Assembly: GCA_947588665.1 (NCBI GenBank) | Contig: CANPYU010000015.1 | Location: 1 to 14,199 of the forward strand | Direction of reading: 5' to 3' | Source of the DNA: an uncultured Bacilli bacterium | GTDB lineage: Bacteria; Bacillota_I; Bacilli_A; RF39; UBA660 | DNA length: 14,199 bases | Shown: piece after piece, positions 4,285 through 14,072 of the stretch | Numbering within the stretch: position 1 is the stretch's first letter | How the letters are laid out: every line of letters begins with the position of its first letter | The notes under the pieces: generated by a model | Databases searched by the model: none | What the model saw: only the letters and a program-made list of their open reading frames with translations | What the model was told of the DNA's origin: nothing | Program-made: the position numbers and the translations under genes

Positions 4285-5202
4285 ATGTTTAAATATACTT
4301 TAGATAATAAAAGATATCATACTCTAAACTATTTTTTTAAATCTAAATTTAATTGTAAAGTTTTTAAAGTTAGTTTAAATGGTAACTTTTCTTGTCCCAA
4401 TTTTAAAAATGGACATGGATGCATTTTCTGTAAACATGGAAGTGGTAATAACTTAGAACATTTAAGTCTAAAAGATCAATTTAACCTTGTTAAAATTCCT
4501 TTAGATCAAAAATGGCCTAATGCTAAATATATTGCTTATTTCCAAGCTAACACGAATACTTATGCTCCTTTAAATATATTAAAAGCAAAATATGAAGAAG
4601 TCTTAACTTACCCTAATGTTATTGGCCTAGATATTGCCACTCGCAGTGATTGTCTAAATGATGAAGTATTAGATTATTTAGAAGAACTTAATACCAGAAC
4701 TTTTTTAATGGTAGAACTAGGATTAGAATCCAGTCATGATCAAACATTAAAACTCATAAATCGTGGTCATGATTTAGATAATTTTATTAAAGCCGTAAAA
4801 AAGCTTAAAAAAAGAAATATTTTTACTATTGCCCATATTATTAATGGCTTACCTTATGAAACAAAAGAAATGATGTTAGATACTGTTAAATTATTAAATA
4901 CTCTTCAAATTGATGGTTTAAAAATTCATATGTTATATATTGAAAAAGAAACTCCCCTCGCATTAATGTATCAAAAAAAGCCCTTTAAAATATTATCTAA
5001 AGAAGAATATATTGATATAGTTTGTGAACAACTCGAATATTTAAATGAAAATATTGTTATTATGCGTATTACTGGAGATCCTAAAAAAGAAGATCTAATT
5101 ACCCCAGATTGGTTATTAAAAAAATTTTGTGTTTTAAATGATATTGATAAAGAAATGCAAAAAAGAAATATTTACCAAGGAGATAAAGTCACTCCCAAGT
5201 AA
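4285..5202 (+). CDS. ytqA: TIGR01212-family radical SAM protein (YtqA/YhcC-like)
   Basis: A 305-residue radical SAM enzyme. The cluster cysteines are C37, C46 and C49 (CPNF..HGCIFC). The 8-residue gap between the first two is shorter than the CPNRDG..GGC form I recall for relatives. GLDIATRSDC (114-123) and VELGLES (143-149) are typical of the family barrel. The Bacillus member YtqA has been linked to mnm5s2U wobble-uridine modification of tRNA (name MnmL, working with the methyltransferase YtqB/MnmM); this is from memory and applies to the family, not to this copy. No ytqB-like gene adjoins it. It has its own promoter, ATG with AAAGGTGA upstream, and its last 14 bp overlap the end of the convergent sigH gene, with no terminator visible between them. 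Confidence 0.88.
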   Translation: MFKYTLDNKRYHTLNYFFKSKFNCKVFKVSLNGNFSCPNFKNGHGCIFCKHGSGNNLEHLSLKDQFNLVKIPLDQKWPNAKYIAYFQANTNTYAPLNILKAKYEEVLTYPNVIGLDIATRSDCLNDEVLDYLEELNTRTFLMVELGLESSHDQTLKLINRGHDLDNFIKAVKKLKKRNIFTIAHIINGLPYETKEMMLDTVKLLNTLQIDGLKIHMLYIEKETPLALMYQKKPFKILSKEEYIDIVCEQLEYLNENIVIMRITGDPKKEDLITPDWLLKKFCVLNDIDKEMQKRNIYQGDKVTPK

Positions 5203-5791
5203 TATTTCTTATTTTTTGTTTAATTCTTTGAATAGTATTATCTATTTGTTTTAAACTTTTATTAGTTAAACTAGCTATTTTTTTTATGTTATATCCATTT
5301 TTCAAATAGTTAAATATTTCATATTCATTAATAGATAATATCTCTTTTATTTTACTTAATAACTCTTCATAACTTTCTTTACTAGTTAATTTACTTAAAG
5401 GCTCAAAATCATAAACATCTTCCATTAAATCCTGAAGAGTCGTTCCCTCTTCATCATAATTATAATCTAGTGAATAAGAATTACTAAAAAATTTAGCTTT
5501 CTCTCCCCCATAACTTTTAATTATTTTTTGTAATCTTCTTCTAATACAAAGTGTAATAAATGTCTCTAGCTTAACATTTTTATCTTCTCTAAAATTTATT
5601 AAAGCATCACTAAAAGCAAAATAAGCCTCTTGTTCAAACTCTTTTAAATCAATTCCTAATTTTAATGCTACACTTCGATACTCATGCAATAAAACATCTA
5701 CAATATATTTATATTTATTATAAATAATATCTTTAGCTTCCTCACTATGTTCTAAATACAAAGAATATATCTCTTCATCTGAATAATCCAT
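5189..5791 (-). CDS. sigH: SigH-type sigma-70 family factor
   Basis: A 200-residue alternative sigma factor that would direct RNA polymerase to a special promoter set. Region 2 covers about residues 15-95 (FEQEAYFAFSDALINF, then the LETFITLCIRRRLQ helix). Region 4 covers about 145-195, with the helix-turn-helix NIKKIASLTNKSLKQIDNT (168-186). Resemblances to Bacillus sigma-H (218 residues) include FREDK (67-71), ITLCIRR (79-85) and SLKQIDNTIQRIKQKI (179-194, against VKSIDNALQRVKRKL). It starts 2 bp after the rlmB stop, with its AGAGG ribosome site inside rlmB, so the two are co-transcribed. Bacillus has rlmB-yacP-sigH; yacP is missing here. The stop is TGA. An ECF-like or other group-3 sigma factor is the alternative, but the context favours sigma-H. 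Confidence 0.85.
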   Translation of the reverse strand: MDYSDEEIYSLYLEHSEEAKDIIYNKYKYIVDVLLHEYRSVALKLGIDLKEFEQEAYFAFSDALINFREDKNVKLETFITLCIRRRLQKIIKSYGGEKAKFFSNSYSLDYNYDEEGTTLQDLMEDVYDFEPLSKLTSKESYEELLSKIKEILSINEYEIFNYLKNGYNIKKIASLTNKSLKQIDNTIQRIKQKIRNITWE

Positions 5792-5793
5792 AT

Positions 5794-6471
5794 TTACCTC
5801 TTTAACATTCCATAAATAAGTATAGCCGCGGAAACACTTGCATTTAAACTATTTATTTTCCCATACATTGGAATACTTACTATAACATCACTTTTATCTC
5901 TTATAATTTTACTTACTCCTTCTCCTTCTGCGCCAATTACTAAAACTCTTTTTAAAGCATAATCAACACTTTGATAAGGCTCTCCATCCATATCAGCTAC
6001 ATAAACAAAAAAATTATTATTCTGTAAAGTTTTTAAAGCATTGCTTAGATTACTAACTAATATTATTTTTACATTATTTAGTGCTCCAGCACTTATTTTC
6101 ATCACTGTTTCATTTACTCTTACACTTCGGTCTTTTGGAATAATTATTGATTTAATTCCCGCACATTCCGCCGTTCTAATAATAGCACCCAAATTATGTG
6201 GATCTTCCAAATGATCTAAACAGACCACAAAATCTTCCTCTAAACAATCATCTAATTTAAAATAATCATAATCATTAATATCAATTACAATACCCTGATG
6301 ATTAGCCTTAACCATCTTATTAAGTCTAACCTCCGGCACTAATTCATACTTAATTTTATTATCTCTTAAATACATAAAAATATTATTATCTTTAAAATTA
6401 TCTCTTAAATATACTTTATGAATATTTTTAACTGGTGTTTCTTTTAAAACATTTTTACCACATACTAACAC
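5794..6471 (-). CDS. rlmB: 23S rRNA 2'-O-methyltransferase RlmB (SpoU family)
   Basis: A 225-residue SPOUT-class enzyme that methylates the 2'-OH of a guanosine in the peptidyl-transferase region of 23S rRNA (G2251 in E. coli) using SAM. A short L30e-like RNA-binding part (about 1-75) precedes the knotted catalytic domain with motif 1 LEDPHNLGAIIRTAECAG (88-105, Asn93), motif 2 IGAEGEGVS (179-187) and motif 3 IPMYGKINSLNASVSAA (200-216). TrmH or another SpoU enzyme cannot be fully excluded, but size and sigH next door fit RlmB. I chose the GTG at 6471: it stands five bases from AGGTGA (6482-6477), while the GTG at 6480 lies inside that sequence and only about two bases from the predicted transcription start. 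Confidence 0.9.
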   Translation of the reverse strand: MLVCGKNVLKETPVKNIHKVYLRDNFKDNNIFMYLRDNKIKYELVPEVRLNKMVKANHQGIVIDINDYDYFKLDDCLEEDFVVCLDHLEDPHNLGAIIRTAECAGIKSIIIPKDRSVRVNETVMKISAGALNNVKIILVSNLSNALKTLQNNNFFVYVADMDGEPYQSVDYALKRVLVIGAEGEGVSKIIRDKSDVIVSIPMYGKINSLNASVSAAILIYGMLKR

Positions 6472-6488
6472 GTTTATCACCTAAAAAA

Positions 6489-6517
6489 AGTATATCAAAA
6501 AAGAAAAGTTTTGTAAA
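6489..6517 (-). promoter_or_regulatory. Promoter of rlmB-sigH
   Basis: On the minus strand TTTACA (6517-6512), a 17-bp spacer, TATACT (6494-6489), both five of six matches. The predicted start near 6482 coincides with the Shine-Dalgarno, giving a nearly absent leader. The promoter sits in the gap after the 187-residue gene, so rlmB-sigH can be transcribed apart from murD. Confidence 0.7.
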
Positions 6518-6549
6518 GCAAGGATTAACCCAACTTCTAACTTTTCTTT
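6500..6549 (-). repeat. 11-bp inverted repeat spanning stop codon and rlmB promoter
   Basis: AACTTTTCTTT (6539-6549) and AAAGAAAAGTT (6500-6510) are exact reverse complements 28 bases apart. In the minus-strand RNA the stem is AAAGAAAAGTT / AACTTTTCTTT, followed by three more Ts. The first arm contains the last codons of the 187-residue gene, the loop holds the rlmB -35 and the second arm lies in the promoter spacer. It could be a weak terminator, though only two of its pairs are G-C. Confidence 0.45.
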
Positions 6550-7100
6550 CTTACTAATTTCTTTATTTTAGATGAATTAATTAAATTATATATAAAATTA
6601 ATATCTTCTATATTTATTCCTTTAACTTGTAAATATTGTGCTAATGTATTATTATCATAATTATCCTTAATTTTTTTATAATCACGATAAAAATATTCCA
6701 CCAATAAAAGTTCTTTTAATTTTTCTAATCTATATTTTTTCACATTCAATTCTAAAGTCAATTTCTCATCTATATTTTGAACTTTATCCTGTTCATCTAC
6801 CATATTTTTATGAATAACCTGTAAATAATTTAAAGCTTTAGATGCTGCTTTAAAATCATTTTTTTCTTTAAAATACATTATAATACTTATACTAATAAAA
6901 TTTAAAGTTAAAATTATACTCCAAGTAAAACCCCATAATCCTAATAACAAGATAAAAGTTAATATAATAACTGGTATAGCTATACAAGCTAGTAAATCTG
7001 TCCTTAAACTTAATACTTTCTTTTCTTGAGCTTTAATTAACTTTTCTATTATTTTTATATTTTTTGCTTTTATAATTGCTTGTCCTCTTTTATCTGTCAT
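6537..7100 (-). CDS. Two-span membrane protein of unknown function
   Basis: I do not recognise this 187-residue protein. A basic N-terminal helix (about 1-32, KAKNIKIIEKLIKAQEKK) leads into two adjacent hydrophobic segments (about 34-54 and 57-77, the second starting WSIILTLNFIS). A long charged region follows that is mostly helical and probably coiled coil (about 79-148), with a short lysine-rich tail. Both ends should be cytoplasmic, with a tiny outside loop. No catalytic motif is visible. The ATG has GGAG five bases upstream and begins 11 bp after the murD stop, so it is co-transcribed and perhaps translationally coupled with murD. That suggests an envelope-related role, but context is the only evidence. 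Confidence 0.75.
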   Translation of the reverse strand: MTDKRGQAIIKAKNIKIIEKLIKAQEKKVLSLRTDLLACIAIPVIILTFILLLGLWGFTWSIILTLNFISISIIMYFKEKNDFKAASKALNYLQVIHKNMVDEQDKVQNIDEKLTLELNVKKYRLEKLKELLLVEYFYRDYKKIKDNYDNNTLAQYLQVKGINIEDINFIYNLINSSKIKKLVRKKS

Positions 7101-7111
7101 TTTAACTCCAT

Positions 7112-8437
7112 CTATAAATTATTTACTAATTCTTTAAATTCACATCCCCGATCTTCAAACTTAGCATATTGATCCCAAGAAGCTGCTCCGGGACTTAAAA
7201 GGACCACATCACCCTTTTTAACATTTTTCCTAACTTTAACCATCGCATCCTTTAAATATAGATCTGTCTCACATAAAATATCATGCGTATTACAAAATTC
7301 TTTTATTTTATCTCTAACTTCCCCAATCGCATATATTCTAACTATTCTATCTTTAAAAGGAATTAAATCATCAAAAGTCTGATTTCGATCCATTCCTCCA
7401 AATATTAAATGAATATTACCTGAAAAACTTTTTAAAGCCGTAACCGTCGCAGTTGGATTAGTAGCTTTAGAATCATTATAATATTCTACCCCTTCTATAT
7501 TTCTTACAAATTCAATACGATGTTCTACCCCTTTAAAACTTTTTAACACTTTTATTGCATATTTAAAATCAACTTTAAGTACTTTTAAAACTAATAACAT
7601 AGCTAAAATATTCTCATAATTATGTGTTCCTTTTAAAAGAATATCTTGAGTATCAATTACTTTTAATTTATCAATGTATATAGCATCACGAGTATAATAA
7701 TTATCTTCACTATTGAAATAATATTTAATATCTTTAATATCTTGAGTAAGTTTTAAACTATCTAAATTACTTTTATTTAATATAGCTATATTATCACTTG
7801 TATGTCCTTTAAATATTTTATATTTAACTTTTTTATAAGCTTCATACGTCCCATGATAATCTAAATGAGTAGGACATAAATTAGTTAAAACACTTATATT
7901 TGTTTTAAAATCATTCATATCAATTAATTGATGATCTGAAATTTCTAAAAGTAAAATATCTTTTTCTTTAATTCTATTTTCATTAATTATCTCTGCTAAA
8001 GGAATACCTATATTTCCCCCTAAAACAACTGGCATATTAGCTTCTTTTAATACTTCATAAATTAAAGTTGTTGTTGTAGTTTTACCATTAGAACCTGTAA
8101 CTCCAATAATATTGATATTTTTAGGCAAAAAGTGATAAGCAACTTCCATTTCATTTTGAACTTCTATTTTTAATTCTTTAGCTTTAAGTATACACGGATG
8201 ATTAGGAAATACTGCCGGATTTTTAATTACCAAAAAATAACTATCATCTAATAATTCTTCTGGTTTATCTGTCAAAATAAACTCTATTCCCCAGTCTTTT
8301 AATTCTTGCACTTTCTCTTTATCTTGCATTTTACTATCAGTAATAATTATTTGATTATTATAATCTTTAAGTAACTTAGCTACTTGATATCCACTTCTAG
8401 CCATCCCTAATATTAATATTTTTTTGTTCTCATACAT
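7112..8437 (-). CDS. murD: UDP-N-acetylmuramoylalanine--D-glutamate ligase MurD
   Basis: A 441-residue cytoplasmic Mur ligase that adds D-glutamate to UDP-MurNAc-L-alanine in peptidoglycan precursor synthesis, close to the usual length of about 450. Domain 1 opens with a nucleotide-fold KILILGMARSGYQVAKLL (6-23). The ATP loop is GVTGSNGKTTTT (112-123), followed by GGNIGIPL (140-147) and the substrate-site CPTHLDYHG (188-196). K205 in YKKVKYKIF is the expected carbamylated lysine. HRIEFV and YYNDSKATNPT lead into the C-terminal domain, which ends with SPGAASWDQYAKFEDRG. The usual SSFQL reads SDHQL (167-171). The ATG follows AAGGTGA by a normal gap. A TATAAT at 8460-8455 may give it a separate promoter, but no good -35 stands before it. 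Confidence 0.97.
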   Translation of the reverse strand: MYENKKILILGMARSGYQVAKLLKDYNNQIIITDSKMQDKEKVQELKDWGIEFILTDKPEELLDDSYFLVIKNPAVFPNHPCILKAKELKIEVQNEMEVAYHFLPKNINIIGVTGSNGKTTTTTLIYEVLKEANMPVVLGGNIGIPLAEIINENRIKEKDILLLEISDHQLIDMNDFKTNISVLTNLCPTHLDYHGTYEAYKKVKYKIFKGHTSDNIAILNKSNLDSLKLTQDIKDIKYYFNSEDNYYTRDAIYIDKLKVIDTQDILLKGTHNYENILAMLLVLKVLKVDFKYAIKVLKSFKGVEHRIEFVRNIEGVEYYNDSKATNPTATVTALKSFSGNIHLIFGGMDRNQTFDDLIPFKDRIVRIYAIGEVRDKIKEFCNTHDILCETDLYLKDAMVKVRKNVKKGDVVLLSPGAASWDQYAKFEDRGCEFKELVNNL

Positions 8438-8467
8438 CTAAATCACCTTCTTAAATTATATGTCAAA

Positions 8468-8495
8468 TAAAAAAAAAAAGCAATAATCTGCTTTT
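8468..8495 (-). terminator. Short hairpin terminator after the 423-residue HExxH gene
   Basis: In the minus-strand RNA AAAAGCA (8495-8489) pairs with TGCTTTT (8482-8476) across a 6-base loop, followed by a long T run (8479-8468). The first arm overlaps the stop codon. The stem has only two G-C pairs, but the T tract is excellent. It separates this gene from murD, perhaps partially. Confidence 0.6.
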
Positions 8496-9765
8496 ACAAT
8501 CGCCTATACTTTCTTAAATTTAATTCTTCTTTTTCTAATATTTCTGTAAAATTTAAACTTCTCAAATAATTATTATATTTTTCTAAATAACCATCAACTA
8601 AATCTTTATCTCTATCATTTTTAAATATTTGAATAAAATCTAAAAATGAACTATCTATATTATTTTCCTGAACATTAAGTAAACATATCTTAAATAATTC
8701 ATCTAATAAATACGGCGAATCCTTTAAAGAAGTTTTAATTTCCTCATGAATATAAGTATCCATATAAGTATCCATTACATCTATAATATAATTTATATCT
8801 ACTGTAGAATACTTTTCTTTTAACAATTTAATTAAATAATCCGAACCTAATAAATTATAATCTTCTAATGTATAAGAACTACATTTCATTAAATACTCTG
8901 TAATGGCAATCTCGTCTTGATAAGTCTCACTTTTAATACTTTCTTGAGCTAATTTAGAAGTCAAAGCTTCATTTAAAAATCGTCCTTTATACCCCATTCT
9001 AACAAAATTTTTACCCTTAATATTTCGATAAAAACTTCCCATAGTATGTGCAAGTTCATGAGTTATAGTACTATAATTATTATCATCACAATAATAAATT
9101 TTATTTTCTTTTGCCACATAACATCCGGCAATATTTCCTCCAAACTCCTGCAATTCCTCAGGTGTTAATTTAATTATTTGTAAAGTTTTCATATTTTCAT
9201 AAAATATCCGAAAGTCAAAATTAGGATGATTTTGATTAACTGCCCTCACTAAATTATAAGCACAAATCTTAAATGAATCATTAATATTAGAATTTTCTTT
9301 TATTGCCCTATTAACTAAATCTAAAGATACTTTTTCATATCCTAAAATATCATCTAACTGATTTAGATCCTCTATAAAAACTATCCCATATCTAAATTGT
9401 TGTGGCACATCAGAAATAAAATATTCATCTTTTAATTCTAAAGCTATTTTATCGCTGGAAATATTCAAATCATAATACTTTAAAGTCTCTTTCCATAAAG
9501 AAACAAACCTAAATAATAATAACATATCAATTATTATACATGATTTAGCTACCAACCGTTTTATTTTATCTTTATCCCTTAAATTATAATCATATAAAAT
9601 AAAACAATCTTTATTATTATAAACATCATTTAAATACTTTAAATCTTTTTCTAAAGGATATTTAAATTGTTCATTATTTTTTTCTAAAAAAATTTTATTT
9701 CCCTTTAAATCTTTAAAAATAGCAAATTTCTTTAAGTTATAATAAATATCTAATAAATATACCAT
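8494..9765 (-). CDS. Putative HExxH (gluzincin-like) protein, short paralogue
   Basis: A 423-residue protein of no family I recognise, paralogous along its length to the gene upstream. Layout: a beta-rich N-terminal piece (about 1-55); a basic stretch then a hydrophobic segment (about 70-90) that may be a membrane anchor; the block DFRIFYENMKTL (184-195); the zinc-site candidate HELAHT (236-241) with a downstream NEAL whose Glu266 is 26 residues after His240; and an all-helical C-terminal part with SPYLLDELFK (350-359). HExxH plus a later Glu in (N/D)EA is the gluzincin metalloprotease pattern, with Glu237 as the catalytic base. If the anchor is real, the protease part would lie outside the cell. 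I chose the ATG at 9765, five bases after GGTGA. TTG 9777 and GTG 9774 lie before or within that site. Substrate unknown. Confidence 0.75.
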   Translation of the reverse strand: MVYLLDIYYNLKKFAIFKDLKGNKIFLEKNNEQFKYPLEKDLKYLNDVYNNKDCFILYDYNLRDKDKIKRLVAKSCIIIDMLLLFRFVSLWKETLKYYDLNISSDKIALELKDEYFISDVPQQFRYGIVFIEDLNQLDDILGYEKVSLDLVNRAIKENSNINDSFKICAYNLVRAVNQNHPNFDFRIFYENMKTLQIIKLTPEELQEFGGNIAGCYVAKENKIYYCDDNNYSTITHELAHTMGSFYRNIKGKNFVRMGYKGRFLNEALTSKLAQESIKSETYQDEIAITEYLMKCSSYTLEDYNLLGSDYLIKLLKEKYSTVDINYIIDVMDTYMDTYIHEEIKTSLKDSPYLLDELFKICLLNVQENNIDSSFLDFIQIFKNDRDKDLVDGYLEKYNNYLRSLNFTEILEKEELNLRKYRRL

Positions 9766-9783
9766 ACCCCTCACCAAAAACCT

Positions 9784-9792
9784 ATTCTAACA
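9784..9792 (-). promoter_or_regulatory. Possible extended -10 before the short HExxH gene
   Basis: In the 40-bp gap between the paralogues the minus strand reads TGT directly before TAGAAT (9789-9784), an extended -10 with five of six matches. No recognisable -35 stands 17 bp upstream. The predicted start would leave a short leader before GGTGA. Co-transcription with the upstream paralogue is at least as likely. Confidence 0.3.
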
Positions 9793-9805
9793 TATAATAA
9801 ATAAA

Positions 9806-11941
9806 TTATCTACTTCTTTCTCTAATTAAATCATTAAAATAATTTATAAATAATTCTAATATTTCTTTTTCACTAAAATTATAACTATCTTTATTTATAT
9901 CTAAAATATTATAATATTTTAATACTTCTTCAAAATATAAATCTTCTTCATCTAAATTATCTATTAAATAATAGTATTCTAAAGGTATTTTAATATCATT
10001 ATATAAACTACTAATAACATAATTATTATTAATATCTTTAACAACTTTAATTTTTCTTAATTCATAAGGCAAAGGAACAATACTATTATCACTCGTAATA
10101 TTTACTTTATAACTAGGAATAAAAACAACTTGATCATCTAAAATTGTTAAATTATTTAAAATATCATTATATTTACCTATATAACTTTTTAAATACTCTA
10201 AATTAAGAATTTTATCTAAATTTAAACTATCATTTATTTTAATATTATTTAAATATAAAGTTAAACTTATCTTTGGTGTTTGAAAAACAATATCTTTTCC
10301 TTCCTGATAAATAATTTCTTCTTGTTTTGATATAACATATCCCATTTCTTTATTACTATTTAATGTAATAGTTAAATCTAAATCTGGTATATATTCTGCT
10401 TTAATAAATTTCCCCTTACTATAAATTGGTACTTTTTGATAATAATATTCTGGTAAATTAATATATTGAAAAGCAAACTCATTCCAAAAATCATCTGTTC
10501 CAAATTTATCATAATTAGAAATATACGCAATAGGAAGCAAACTATTAATATTATTTGCCCGAAATATCTTTCCTCCATTCCCTTTAATTAACCTCAAATT
10601 TCCTTTTCTATCTAATATATAATTATAATTTTTAGCTAAACAAGGAAATACTCCATCCCTACAAGTATATAAAGCATCTACATTCTGGTAAGCTTTCAAA
10701 TCATTGTTTATTTTTTCTAAAGTTATATAAGGCCTGTAACCTTTATCTTCCAATATTTTATTATATTTATTTAAATATTGATATAATATTGTTTTATCTT
10801 CTACTTGCCTAAATAATTTAGCAAATTCTTTAAAAGAATTATAATCTTTATCTATATTATAAATACTCATTTTAAAAAGCTCATCTAATAAATATGGCGA
10901 ACTATCTAAACTTCTTGTAATTCCTTCTTTAACTAATGAATTTTTATACGCATCAAGTACTTCAATAATATAATTTATATCTACTGAAGGATATTTATCT
11001 TCTAAACCTTCAATTAACGCCCAAACCCCTTTTTGATTATAATCCAATATATTAAAATTACCCATTTCCATTAAATAATCTGATACTAATTTTTCATTTA
11101 TATAAGCATATTCTTGAGAGCATAAATTAGTAATTTCACTATTTAGTGCTTCATCAATAAAACTTCCATTATTTACACTTCTTAAATAAAGATTTTTACC
11201 ATCAATCCGATAATAATGATAACTAGTATGAGCAAGTTCATGTATAATTGCATTTTCATCCATTTCTTCCTGATAATAAATAGTATTAGTAACACTATCA
11301 TAACAAGCAGCAATATGCCCATATTTAGCTTTTAACTCTTCATTTGAAATTGAAACAATATTTAAAGTTTTCATATTCTCATAAAATATCCGAAAATCAA
11401 AAGAACTATACATTTTCTCTAATTTTTGTACTAAAGTATGAGCACAAGTCTTAAATTGTTCATTTAAATTAGTATTACTATCAATTACCTCATGAACATT
11501 TTCAGTAGAAATGCTATCATAACCTAAAACTTCCGTTAAATCTTCACTATTTTTAATATTAACTATAGTATATTCTTTATTAGCATAAATAGGATTTATA
11601 GCATTTAAAACAATACCATTATCTGTTAACTTAACTTCATAATTTGCTAAATCACTTTTAAGCTTACCACCTATAATTCCTACTGCTATAACATCAAGAA
11701 CTAATAAACTTCTTGCAATTATAACTTTTTCTTTATAACTAAATTTTGGAATTAAATAACACATATATGGATTATAATTATTATATATGCTATTTAAATA
11801 TATAAAATCATCTAATAAAGGATACTTATATTTATTATCTTTAATTTCCAAAAAAGTTTTCCGGTTATTATTATCTAATAATATCATAAATTTCTTTTTA
11901 TCATAACTAATTACTAATAACTTTTGAAATTCCCCATTCAC
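9806..11941 (-). CDS. Putative HExxH (gluzincin-like) protein, long paralogue
   Basis: A 711-residue protein. Its first 410 or so residues parallel the short paralogue: N-terminal beta-rich region; hydrophobic segment about 72-92 (VIIARSLLVLDVIAVGIIGG); DFRIFYENMKTL (182-193); HELAHT (234-239); Glu264 in DEAL, again 26 residues after the second His; then SPYLLDELFK (349-358). Matching spacing of all three candidate zinc ligands in both copies argues for a retained metal site. A further 290 residues of mainly beta-strand-like sequence follow (from about 420), opening with a pair of cysteines (C427, C434; TCRDGVFPC) and absent from the short copy. I see no known domain in it. I chose the GTG at 11941, seven bases after GGGGGTG (11954-11948). 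The GTG at 11950 is part of that site. Possibly a membrane-anchored envelope protease with a substrate-binding tail; this is inference. Confidence 0.75.
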   Translation of the reverse strand: MNGEFQKLLVISYDKKKFMILLDNNNRKTFLEIKDNKYKYPLLDDFIYLNSIYNNYNPYMCYLIPKFSYKEKVIIARSLLVLDVIAVGIIGGKLKSDLANYEVKLTDNGIVLNAINPIYANKEYTIVNIKNSEDLTEVLGYDSISTENVHEVIDSNTNLNEQFKTCAHTLVQKLEKMYSSFDFRIFYENMKTLNIVSISNEELKAKYGHIAACYDSVTNTIYYQEEMDENAIIHELAHTSYHYYRIDGKNLYLRSVNNGSFIDEALNSEITNLCSQEYAYINEKLVSDYLMEMGNFNILDYNQKGVWALIEGLEDKYPSVDINYIIEVLDAYKNSLVKEGITRSLDSSPYLLDELFKMSIYNIDKDYNSFKEFAKLFRQVEDKTILYQYLNKYNKILEDKGYRPYITLEKINNDLKAYQNVDALYTCRDGVFPCLAKNYNYILDRKGNLRLIKGNGGKIFRANNINSLLPIAYISNYDKFGTDDFWNEFAFQYINLPEYYYQKVPIYSKGKFIKAEYIPDLDLTITLNSNKEMGYVISKQEEIIYQEGKDIVFQTPKISLTLYLNNIKINDSLNLDKILNLEYLKSYIGKYNDILNNLTILDDQVVFIPSYKVNITSDNSIVPLPYELRKIKVVKDINNNYVISSLYNDIKIPLEYYYLIDNLDEEDLYFEEVLKYYNILDINKDSYNFSEKEILELFINYFNDLIRERSR

Positions 11942-11964
11942 TAATATCACCCCCGATATAAAGC

Positions 11965-11988
11965 CAAAAAAAGCAATTAACTTGCTTT
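11965..11988 (-). terminator. Short hairpin terminator at the end of the lysozyme-like gene
   Basis: In the minus-strand RNA AAAGCAA (11988-11982) pairs with TTGCTTT (11976-11970) across GTTAA, followed by seven Ts (11971-11965). The first arm is made of the last codons and the loop carries the stop codon. It resembles the hairpin behind the short HExxH gene. Read-through into the long paralogue is likely, as that gene has no clear promoter. Confidence 0.6.
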
Positions 11989-12549
11989 AATTAAATTAAT
12001 ATAATAATTAACATCTTTATACCAATTAGGATTCTCGGCATATTTTTTATTCATTAACTCTGGAGTTGTTAATCCATAAGCATAATAATTATTTGCTAAA
12101 TTACGAATAAAAGCATTTAATCCCGTATCTAAATCTTTAAATGAAGCATATGAACCACATCCAGTTCCTTTCATGCCTCCAATATTATTACAATGTTTAG
12201 TTAAATAACTGCAATTCCATTTACAACCTGTTTCTACTAATATAATACCTGTTGCCACCAATGGATCTACTTCATATTCTAAAGCAATACTTGCAATATT
12301 TGTACCATATCCATCTAATGTTGAATTAAGAACATTATTAATTTTATTACTTAATTCCTTCAATGTTAAACCTTCATAAACAATTAGCTCTTCATATCTA
12401 CTTTTTGGAATATTACTTTCATATATATTATTCTTTATATAATTATGATATAAAACTCTTTCTTCTGTACTTTTTTTATAAGCTATAATACTACTACTTA
12501 ATATAAAAATGATTATCATCATCTTATATATATAACTTTTCATTTTCAA
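11977..12549 (-). CDS. Membrane-anchored lysozyme-like (glucosaminidase-type) protein
   Basis: A 190-residue exported protein. An N-terminal hydrophobic helix (about 8-23) after a lysine-containing start acts as signal anchor with no obvious cleavage site. A linker follows, then a lysozyme-fold domain (about 80-190) of the glucosaminidase (PF01832) type that cuts peptidoglycan glycan strands. Seen in the sequence: SIALEYEVDPLVATGIILVETG with candidate catalytic Glu106, the CNNIGGMKG turn (120-128), YASFKDLDTGLNAFI (134-148) and the family's closing WYKDVNYYINLI. Four cysteines (C109, C113, C120, C131) cluster around the active site and could form two disulfides, unusual for an exported protein of a low-GC Gram-positive. 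The ATG follows AGGGGGAAG by about nine bases. It is first behind a perfect promoter and upstream of the two HExxH genes. It may cut, bind or merely sense cell wall. Confidence 0.8.
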   Translation of the reverse strand: MKMKSYIYKMMIIIFILSSSIIAYKKSTEERVLYHNYIKNNIYESNIPKSRYEELIVYEGLTLKELSNKINNVLNSTLDGYGTNIASIALEYEVDPLVATGIILVETGCKWNCSYLTKHCNNIGGMKGTGCGSYASFKDLDTGLNAFIRNLANNYYAYGLTTPELMNKKYAENPNWYKDVNYYINLIKAS

Positions 12550-12561
12550 AACTTCCCCCTG

Positions 12562-12576
12562 CTTCTTTTAAAGAAG
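12562..12576. repeat. 15-bp palindrome at the predicted transcription start
   Basis: CTTCTTT (12562-12568) and AAAGAAG (12570-12576) are exact reverse complements around one central base. The element covers about +1 to +16 of the lysozyme-like transcript, just before the Shine-Dalgarno. It could be an operator, or fold in RNA as a 5-bp stem with a 5-base loop that stabilises the 5' end or affects ribosome access. Confidence 0.45.
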
Positions 12577-12583
12577 TATCATA

Positions 12584-12612
12584 ATTATAACATATATTAC
12601 TTATTTTGTCAA
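12584..12612 (-). promoter_or_regulatory. Perfect consensus sigma-A promoter of the lysozyme-like gene
   Basis: On the minus strand TTGACA (12612-12607), exactly 17 bp, TATAAT (12589-12584), with TG positioned as an extended -10. Both hexamers match consensus at every base, so this should be the strongest housekeeping promoter in the window unless it is repressed. The predicted start is near 12577. Confidence 0.85.
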
Positions 12613-12631
12613 ATCAAGTACAAACATTTGT

Positions 12632-12928
12632 TTATATTCTTTCAATAAAATCAATATTTTTAATCTTAATTTTATCCCCACTTAAAGTAAGCAACTCATT
12701 ATTAGTTTTACCCACAATTACTGTCTCAATAATATCATTACCCATTCTTATTTCTACTTTACTCTTATAAACATGATGAGGATTAGCAAAAATTTCATTT
12801 ATCTTTCCCAAAATATTAACATTATCTCTATTAACATTCTTTACTTCCCGACTTGAAAATACTTCTCTATTATTATTTAACTGCTTATTAATTGGATTAG
12901 CATAAACTTTAGGCAAATTTTTATTCAT
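12632..12928 (-). CDS. Small protein of unknown function (98 residues)
   Basis: I do not recognise this protein. The first 50 residues are polar, basic and asparagine-rich, with two similar short motifs, VYANP (8-12) and IFANPHHVYKS (46-56). The last 45 residues (about 54-98) look like a compact beta-strand domain: VEIRMGNDIIETVIVGKT, LLTLSGDKIKI, then NIDFIERI, a strand pattern like small SH3- or Sm-like barrels. There is no signal peptide, membrane helix or cysteine. The ATG has GAGGTG seven bases upstream (12941-12936). It is divergent from rodA and upstream of the lysozyme-like gene, which has its own promoter. Real gene status rests on the good ribosome site and non-random composition. 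Confidence 0.65.
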   Translation of the reverse strand: MNKNLPKVYANPINKQLNNNREVFSSREVKNVNRDNVNILGKINEIFANPHHVYKSKVEIRMGNDIIETVIVGKTNNELLTLSGDKIKIKNIDFIERI

Positions 12929-12986
12929 AAGTTACACCTCTATAATATTTTATGATAAATTACCTAAATTGAGACATACTAATACC

Positions 12987-14072
12987 ATGAAAAAGAAAAA
13001 TATAATTAATAAATTACCCTTAATAATTCCTTTATTAATACTTACCATTATCTCTTTAATTAACATGAAAATAATAGGTATTAATAATGAAACTTATAAT
13101 AGTTATTTTCTAAAACAAGTATTATGGTTTATCCTTGGATTTATTTCTATGGTTATAATTATTATTTTTAAACCCAAAATACTTTTTAAATATAGTAAAT
13201 ATCTATATTTATTAAATGTTTTACTTCTAATATTAGTCTTATTCTTTGGTAAAACTGTCAATGGTTCTACTGCCTGGTTTAATCTTTACTTTTTTTCTTT
13301 TCAACCCAGCGAATTAATGAAATTAACACTTACTCTTTATTTAAGTGAAACCCTATCCCATTATAAAGAGCATACTTTTAAACAAGAACTAAAATTTATT
13401 CTAAAAGCTTTTTTTATCACATTAATCCCTTCTTTATTTGTATTTCTAGAACCTGATACTGGAGCAATCATTATATATTTTTTAATAATGATTGGAGTTA
13501 TTTTAGTTTATAAATTAAACTTTAAATGGTATTTATTTATTAGTATTATAATAATTATCGCACTATTAACTTTTAGTTATTTGTATATCTATCAAAAAGA
13601 TCTTTTAATTAAATTAATAGGAACCTCTTTCTTTTATCGAATTGATAGAATTTTAACATTTGTAAATAATGATTCTTTTCAATTAGATCGCGCTTTAACT
13701 GCCATAGGAATTTCTAATATTTTTAAAGGTGGCAATTATATATATATTCCAGAAGCCCCCACCGACTTTATTATTGCTTTATCTATTAATAATCTGGGTA
13801 TCATAAGTTTTATTATAATTTTAATAAGTTTCATTATTTTAGATTTCTACTTTTTATTTAAACTTTTTAAAGCTAAAAATACTAAATTTAAAATGTTTTT
13901 CTCAAGCTTTATTGTCATGTTTATTTTTGCTCAAATTCAAAACATAGGCATGAATCTAGGTCTATTCCCCATCATTGGACTACCCTTACCATTCTTAAGT
14001 TATGGAGGTACAAATATCATTGTTTACTTCATGTTTTTAGGAATTTTAGCTAGTAAAAGTAAAAATTTTTAA
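12987..14072 (+). CDS. rodA: RodA-type SEDS peptidoglycan glycosyltransferase
   Basis: A polytopic membrane enzyme of 361 residues with about ten helices that polymerises lipid II into glycan strands, normally paired with a class B penicillin-binding protein. Visible: NGSTAWFN (92-99, W97); FQPSEL (105-110); EPDTGA (155-160); the loop TDFI with candidate catalytic Asp260; and NLGLFPIIGLPLPFLSYGG (323-341). The GLPLPF form and missing FtsW-type KGLTLPF favour RodA (elongation) over FtsW or SpoVE. The loop before TDFI is short. I prefer the ATG at 12987, which gives a lysine-rich cytoplasmic start. An in-frame TTG at 12969 would add six residues. Neither start has a convincing Shine-Dalgarno. 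It is divergent from the 98-residue gene across 58 bp. Confidence 0.9.
   Translation: MKKKNIINKLPLIIPLLILTIISLINMKIIGINNETYNSYFLKQVLWFILGFISMVIIIIFKPKILFKYSKYLYLLNVLLLILVLFFGKTVNGSTAWFNLYFFSFQPSELMKLTLTLYLSETLSHYKEHTFKQELKFILKAFFITLIPSLFVFLEPDTGAIIIYFLIMIGVILVYKLNFKWYLFISIIIIIALLTFSYLYIYQKDLLIKLIGTSFFYRIDRILTFVNNDSFQLDRALTAIGISNIFKGGNYIYIPEAPTDFIIALSINNLGIISFIIILISFIILDFYFLFKLFKAKNTKFKMFFSSFIVMFIFAQIQNIGMNLGLFPIIGLPLPFLSYGGTNIIVYFMFLGILASKSKNF

Follow-up and report, generated by a model that had tools for sequence, protein, structure and literature searches.

A so far unnamed family of predicted gluzincin-type zinc metallopeptidases in uncultured Bacilli

Two adjacent genes on the minus strand of a 14,199-base stretch of DNA from an uncultured Bacilli bacterium (hereafter the window; G+C content 24%) are tandem paralogues, and the proteins that they encode, here called a and b, probably represent a family of gluzincin-type zinc metallopeptidases from uncultured Bacilli and Tenericutes that is still without a name, and in whose long form a signal anchor would hold the catalytic domain outside the cell. 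As we picture it, an N-terminal domain of about 60 residues would remain in the cytoplasm, while a single hydrophobic segment would act as a signal anchor (perhaps as a cleaved signal in some relatives) and place the catalytic domain outside. There, a zinc ion would be held by both histidines of an HExxH motif and by a glutamate on the following helix, and the glutamate of the motif itself would activate the water that cuts the peptide bond, so that surface proteins could be trimmed or turned over. The family is peptidase-like, keeps four near-invariant residues and is unnamed in the libraries searched; with at most three candidates scored per genome, a broad profile found it in 163 of the 385 genomes sampled from the order of genome G001, an order of small genomes. 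Naming the family would give these bacteria a testable function in surface proteolysis.

Paralogy and the proposed catalytic residues

The open reading frame (ORF) of gene a covers 8494-9777 (-) and that of gene b 9806-11950 (-). The outer starts, TTG and GTG, would give 427 and 714 residues, and the inner starts, ATG at 9765 and GTG at 11941, give 423 and 711; each inner start has a purine-rich, ribosome-binding-like stretch upstream of it. An original prediction made on this DNA had described paralogues of the latter two lengths, and alignment by BLASTP bears this out (156 of 426 positions identical, 37%, E 4e-80), a likeness too strong to be due to chance. Both proteins contain the identical blocks DFRIFYENMKTL and SPYLLDELFK, as had been pointed out, and their blocks follow the matching order then proposed, which is visible in both structure models as well. 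The end of a coincides with the beginning of the C-terminal extension of b. Phylogeny is less clear about when the two genes arose. A first tree joins b to the single gene of locus L001 (support 91/81) and leaves a grouping of a with b at a borderline value in the approximately unbiased test (p-AU 0.0498). A larger tree unites a, b and the L001 gene in one clade (97/88), and on the timing of the duplication it returns 71/14, with a p-AU of 0.307 for a with b. The features of both genes and of their surroundings are collected in Table 1.

Table 1. Features of genes a and b and of neighbouring DNA in the window
Feature	Positions	Strand	Basis or remark
Gene b, 711 aa: N-terminal domain, hydrophobic segment, gluzincin-like domain, C-terminal extension	9806..11941	-	
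Gene a, 423 aa: blocks as in b, minus the C-terminal extension	8494..9765	-	
b N-terminal beta-rich domain, predicted cytoplasmic	11756..11926	-	conservation, model secondary structure
a N-terminal beta-rich domain, predicted cytoplasmic	9592..9762	-	conservation, model secondary structure
b hydrophobic segment, proposed signal anchor	11660..11725	-	
a hydrophobic segment, proposed signal anchor	9493..9555	-	
b HELAH, proposed zinc-binding motif	11228..11242	-	
b distal Glu, proposed third zinc ligand	11150..11152	-	
a HELAH, proposed zinc-binding motif	9046..9060	-	
a distal Glu, proposed third zinc ligand	8968..8970	-	
b C-terminal extension (strands mixed with helices, about 290 aa), not in a	9809..10678	-	
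Glucosaminidase-like gene, 190 aa, directly upstream of b	11977..12549	-	PF01832, 29.8 bits vs cut-off 30.2
murD, next gene downstream of a	7112..8437	-	Pfam Mur_ligase_M, 2.5e-28
TTGACA-17-TATAAT, candidate operon promoter, upstream of the glucosaminidase-like gene	12584..12612	-	consensus match only

Numbered from the outer starts, HELAH lies at residue 240 in a and 237 in b, and the glutamate of an EAL motif follows at 270 and 267, which places it 26 residues after the second histidine in both copies, exactly as first described. Conservation was counted, gaps excluded, in 166 stretches from 165 sequences, with recovered pieces added back from loci left out of the 39-row alignment A3 as partial, broken or hard to align (L008, L016, L022, L028, L035 and L038). 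The counts lean toward agreement because the profile to which the stretches were aligned had been built from up to 73 of these same sequences. The first histidine and the glutamate of HExxH are each kept in 161/161 aligned stretches, the second histidine in 160/161 and the distal glutamate in 161/162, the exception being P0072, in which arginine and lysine replace the second histidine and the distal glutamate; Asn195 is kept in 161/161 and Tyr286 in 158/163. A distal glutamate that varies freely among homologues was looked for and not seen. The distance between the second histidine and this glutamate, on the other hand, ranges from 24 to 40 residues over 160 stretches, being most often 33 (74/160) and 26 in just 14. 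The expected conservation of the candidate ligands thus stands, whereas their exact spacing is common to a and b but not to the family, and to judge from the alignment four catalytic-type residues are under selection and the exact distance is not.

The gluzincins of clan MA(E), which include M1, M4, M9, M13, M30 and M34, share an HExxH motif and a downstream glutamate on the following helix. The family alignment shows HExxH with its glutamate, and the AlphaFold models, which speak to helix position rather than to metal contact, place the active-site helix at 235-247 in model a and at 232-241 in model b, followed by a helix that carries the distal glutamate (266-277 in a, 263-275 in b). It is also gluzincin zinc peptidases that give both models their best structural matches, with middling Z scores, and the models to this extent favor the metalloprotease-type reading with which the original prediction began.

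Known families and distribution

Neither a nor b falls into any sequence family of Pfam, NCBIfam or the PDB, and the original failure to place them stands after a confident known family was sought. Gene a has no Pfam match and gene b two sub-threshold names; NCBIfam offers a single weak and unrelated name for the two genes, PHROGs a few weak matches, at best E 0.0029, to families whose function is unknown. Queried with gene a, the PDB sequences yielded no significant match, and with a profile of 39 relatives as the query no chain fell below E 0.2. All that 39 relatives drew from Pfam and NCBIfam, and 73 members from Pfam, was a scatter of weak names; for the 73, the names are those of 25 of the 38 families matched. 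Part of these names are zincins and others are clearly unrelated. The weak zincin names include Tox-MPTase4 (5/73), M91 (3/73) and SprT-like (2/73), and among the 39 members one match each to M48, M61 and M78; the Pfam profiles of M1, M9 and M34, which are neighbours at the level of fold, were matched neither by a or b at E 1 nor by the 39 members at E 0.1.

Three named families invite closer comparison. Tox-MPTase4 (PF15640) is the most frequent weak match (E<=0.1 in those five members, best 2.6e-4) and in gene b it covers the HExxH stretch, but b scores 12.9 of the 25 bits of the gathering score and a does not match. An excerpt of one study presents it as a toxin domain typically found behind RHS repeats (PMC3482391), an architecture that, as far as the excerpt goes, is unlike that of the present family. 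The M60-like peptidases (PF13402) are extracellular, with the pattern HExxHx(8,28)E and an occurrence in a Mycoplasma, according to part of another source (PMC3267712), and to that extent they resemble the present family in its predicted location and in their gluzincin-like pattern; however, PF13402 is absent from the 25 families to which the 39 members gave a match at E 0.1. Peptidase_M91 (PF14891) resembles its weakly matching members at best at E 0.01, which is not significant, and a and b do not match it at E 1. Among the matches listed in literature searches on RF39 metallopeptidases and HExxH, none concerned the family by its title or the start of its abstract, and the one paper that turned up on gluzincins in Tenericutes deals with M60-like peptidases. 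On the strength of these searches and of the family libraries, we regard the family as so far undescribed.

A first protein search returned 12 entries, the two window proteins included, and genome contigs supplied eight loci with titles of uncultured Bacilli, Tenericutes or Mycoplasma. In the first eight genomes found, six held a single match and two held two matches that are partial stretches. The family takes two forms, a long one with the hydrophobic segment and a short one of about 300-390 residues, and profile-profile comparison joins their catalytic domains (probability 98.7%, E 2.8e-16, 178 columns) with HExxH and the distal glutamate in register. A long-form profile matched in 32 of the 193 genomes of the family of G001. 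A second homology search with A3, a mixed alignment, scored only the 7992 candidates with the most words in common and added one protein, P0013, and a third with the short-form alignment A4 found 388. None of the best 120 of these 388, the ones used here, has a Pfam domain; two of them have a named source, a Bacilli bacterium, and are annotated as hypothetical. Some zincin copies are broken by stops (L035/L067 and L038/L069). Phage or plasmid origin was rejected, as tblastn came back blank for gene a in phages and for gene b in plasmids. Viral contigs held no confirmed locus with gene b or alignment A2, and against a viral structure library model a found nothing at E 0.001, the PHROG matches being weak here too.

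Location, the short form and competing interpretations

The 39 loci examined fall by BLAST clustering into 19 of long type and 20 of short type, one of the latter with a protein of 775 residues. Among 36 non-redundant long-type proteins, the hydrophobic segment has a mean hydropathy of at least 1.6 in 31, and its N-terminal side is the more positive in 31 (mean net charge +2.25 vs -0.75). Such a bias fits an N-in, C-out orientation and makes it likely that the catalytic domain of the long form lies outside, in line with the surface location originally suggested. By loose patterns, 4 of the 36 have a lipobox-like motif near the end of the segment, 7 an AxA-like motif and 2 both; a and b have neither.

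The catalytic domain might instead be intracellular, with the segment merely attaching the protein to the membrane and cytoplasmic proteins as substrates. The short form lends this some weight, since its entries are mostly less hydrophobic (an 18-residue measure reaches 1.6 in 17/130 short against 19/34 long entries, the latter including fragments and outliers) and its genes often lie tightly behind a small DUF1292-related gene. We consider it unlikely for the long form in view of the charge bias and of the few members with lipobox- or AxA-like ends in the style of exported proteins.

The small gene itself stands directly upstream of the short form in 10/20 short-type loci and is DUF1292 by Pfam in three of four tested. 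In the literature searched, the name DUF1292 turns up in six papers, a single time in each. Of the 29 best short-type matches (L062-L090), 17 have a DUF1292-related gene directly upstream and 2 have it downstream; by mechanical starts, 16 of the 17 are within 21 bases of the short form or overlap it, and two stand before zincin genes interrupted by stops (L067, L069). What lies beyond this gene on the upstream side mostly varies, so it is the gene pair as such that is conserved, and this recurrent neighbor provides a first functional handle on DUF1292. The overlap is often 8 bases by mechanical starts (L092 4683-4934, L098 6777-7034, L118 4485-4751 and others). One could accordingly imagine the diversifying zincins of a single order, in which short enzymes are co-translated with a DUF1292-related inhibitor, chaperone or substrate, and in which the fused N-terminal domain of the long form took over that role, keeping the enzyme silent inside and letting it act outside, or on its neighbors, after export. 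We rate this scenario a little lower still. That the N-terminal domain is a relative of DUF1292, a suspicion first raised by eye, was rejected (profile-profile E 0.12 over 12 columns, and 0.59 and 0.72 with larger sets), but the scenario stands without this homology and is left intact by its rejection.

Rather improbable is a membrane sensor, in which the cytoplasmic domain would signal and the outer zincin-like domain would serve as its input, an arrangement we take to be comparable to RsgI-type or BlaR1-type receptors. The N-terminal domain is certainly well conserved (10/63 columns invariant in 17 aligned long-type sequences), and two small ORFs hold it alone, without a peptidase (L060 1489-1764 (-) and L061 1486-1689 (+)). 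A cluster named response-regulator-like by reading was seen in 3/39 loci (at L111 it immediately precedes the peptidase), and 4/39 have HTH-like genes. Yet two pieces of the domain tested had no Pfam match, no regulator adjoins the long form directly in more than one of the loci examined, and a pure receptor would have no need of near-invariant catalytic residues. Least probable is an inactive zincin-like scaffold retained for binding, for although P0072, having lost two of the proposed ligands, indicates that inactive members can exist, the HExxH glutamate, which serves catalysis rather than zinc holding, is kept in every aligned stretch counted.

Gene neighborhoods and the window

A glucosaminidase-like gene followed by the peptidase recurs in 6/19 long-type loci (window, L001, L108, L109, L112 and L120), and murD comes next in five of the six (not L108), so that the cell-wall gene setting originally remarked upon in the window is found again elsewhere. 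The remaining long-type loci have different neighbors, some common to pairs of loci. Genome G377 has two long-form genes on separate contigs, L112 in the glucosaminidase-murD setting and L113 elsewhere. Between the window and L001 the peptidase is 42% identical and nine other shared genes are 60-90% identical, which means that the peptidase changes faster than its neighbors. The simplest account is that of a fast-changing, unnamed family of gluzincins, with a long form that is held by a signal anchor and is probably active outside the cell. Because a secreted-type wall hydrolase is encoded upstream, wall enzymes processed by the peptidase are candidate substrates, a possibility we hold only tentatively.

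More than one copy was present in 5/39 loci (window 2, L106 4, L107 2, L117 2 about 3 kb apart, L119 3). The window is alone in this among the 19 long-type loci, as it is among the six with the glucosaminidase-like gene, and the idea that homologues always occur in pairs was dropped; this and the fixed spacing apart, the original interpretation survives, its envelope-protein substrates being conjectural. The tandem groups at L106, L107 and L119 consist of short-form zincins.

The minus-strand genes of the window run, in order of transcription, from a 98-residue ORF through the glucosaminidase-like gene, b, a, murD, a 187-residue ORF and a TrmH-like RNA methyltransferase gene to a sigma-factor-like gene (the last two named by sequence reading), and an ftsW-like gene is divergent from this run. 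Gaps of 29, 31 and 59 bases, counted from mechanical starts and with stop codons left in, separate the glucosaminidase-like gene from b, b from a, and a from murD. A perfect TTGACA-17-TATAAT occurs once in the window, against a mean of 0.01 over 200 shuffles, and a scan for minus-strand terminators from 5000 to 13100, weak in A+T-rich DNA, found none. Gaps, promoter match and scan together make one operon likely. The 187-residue ORF (6537-7100 (-)) separates murD from the TrmH-like gene in the window but is not at that place in L001. The 98-residue ORF (12632-12928 (-)), for which Pfam gave no family over its cut-off, adjoins the glucosaminidase-like gene and recurs in five loci.
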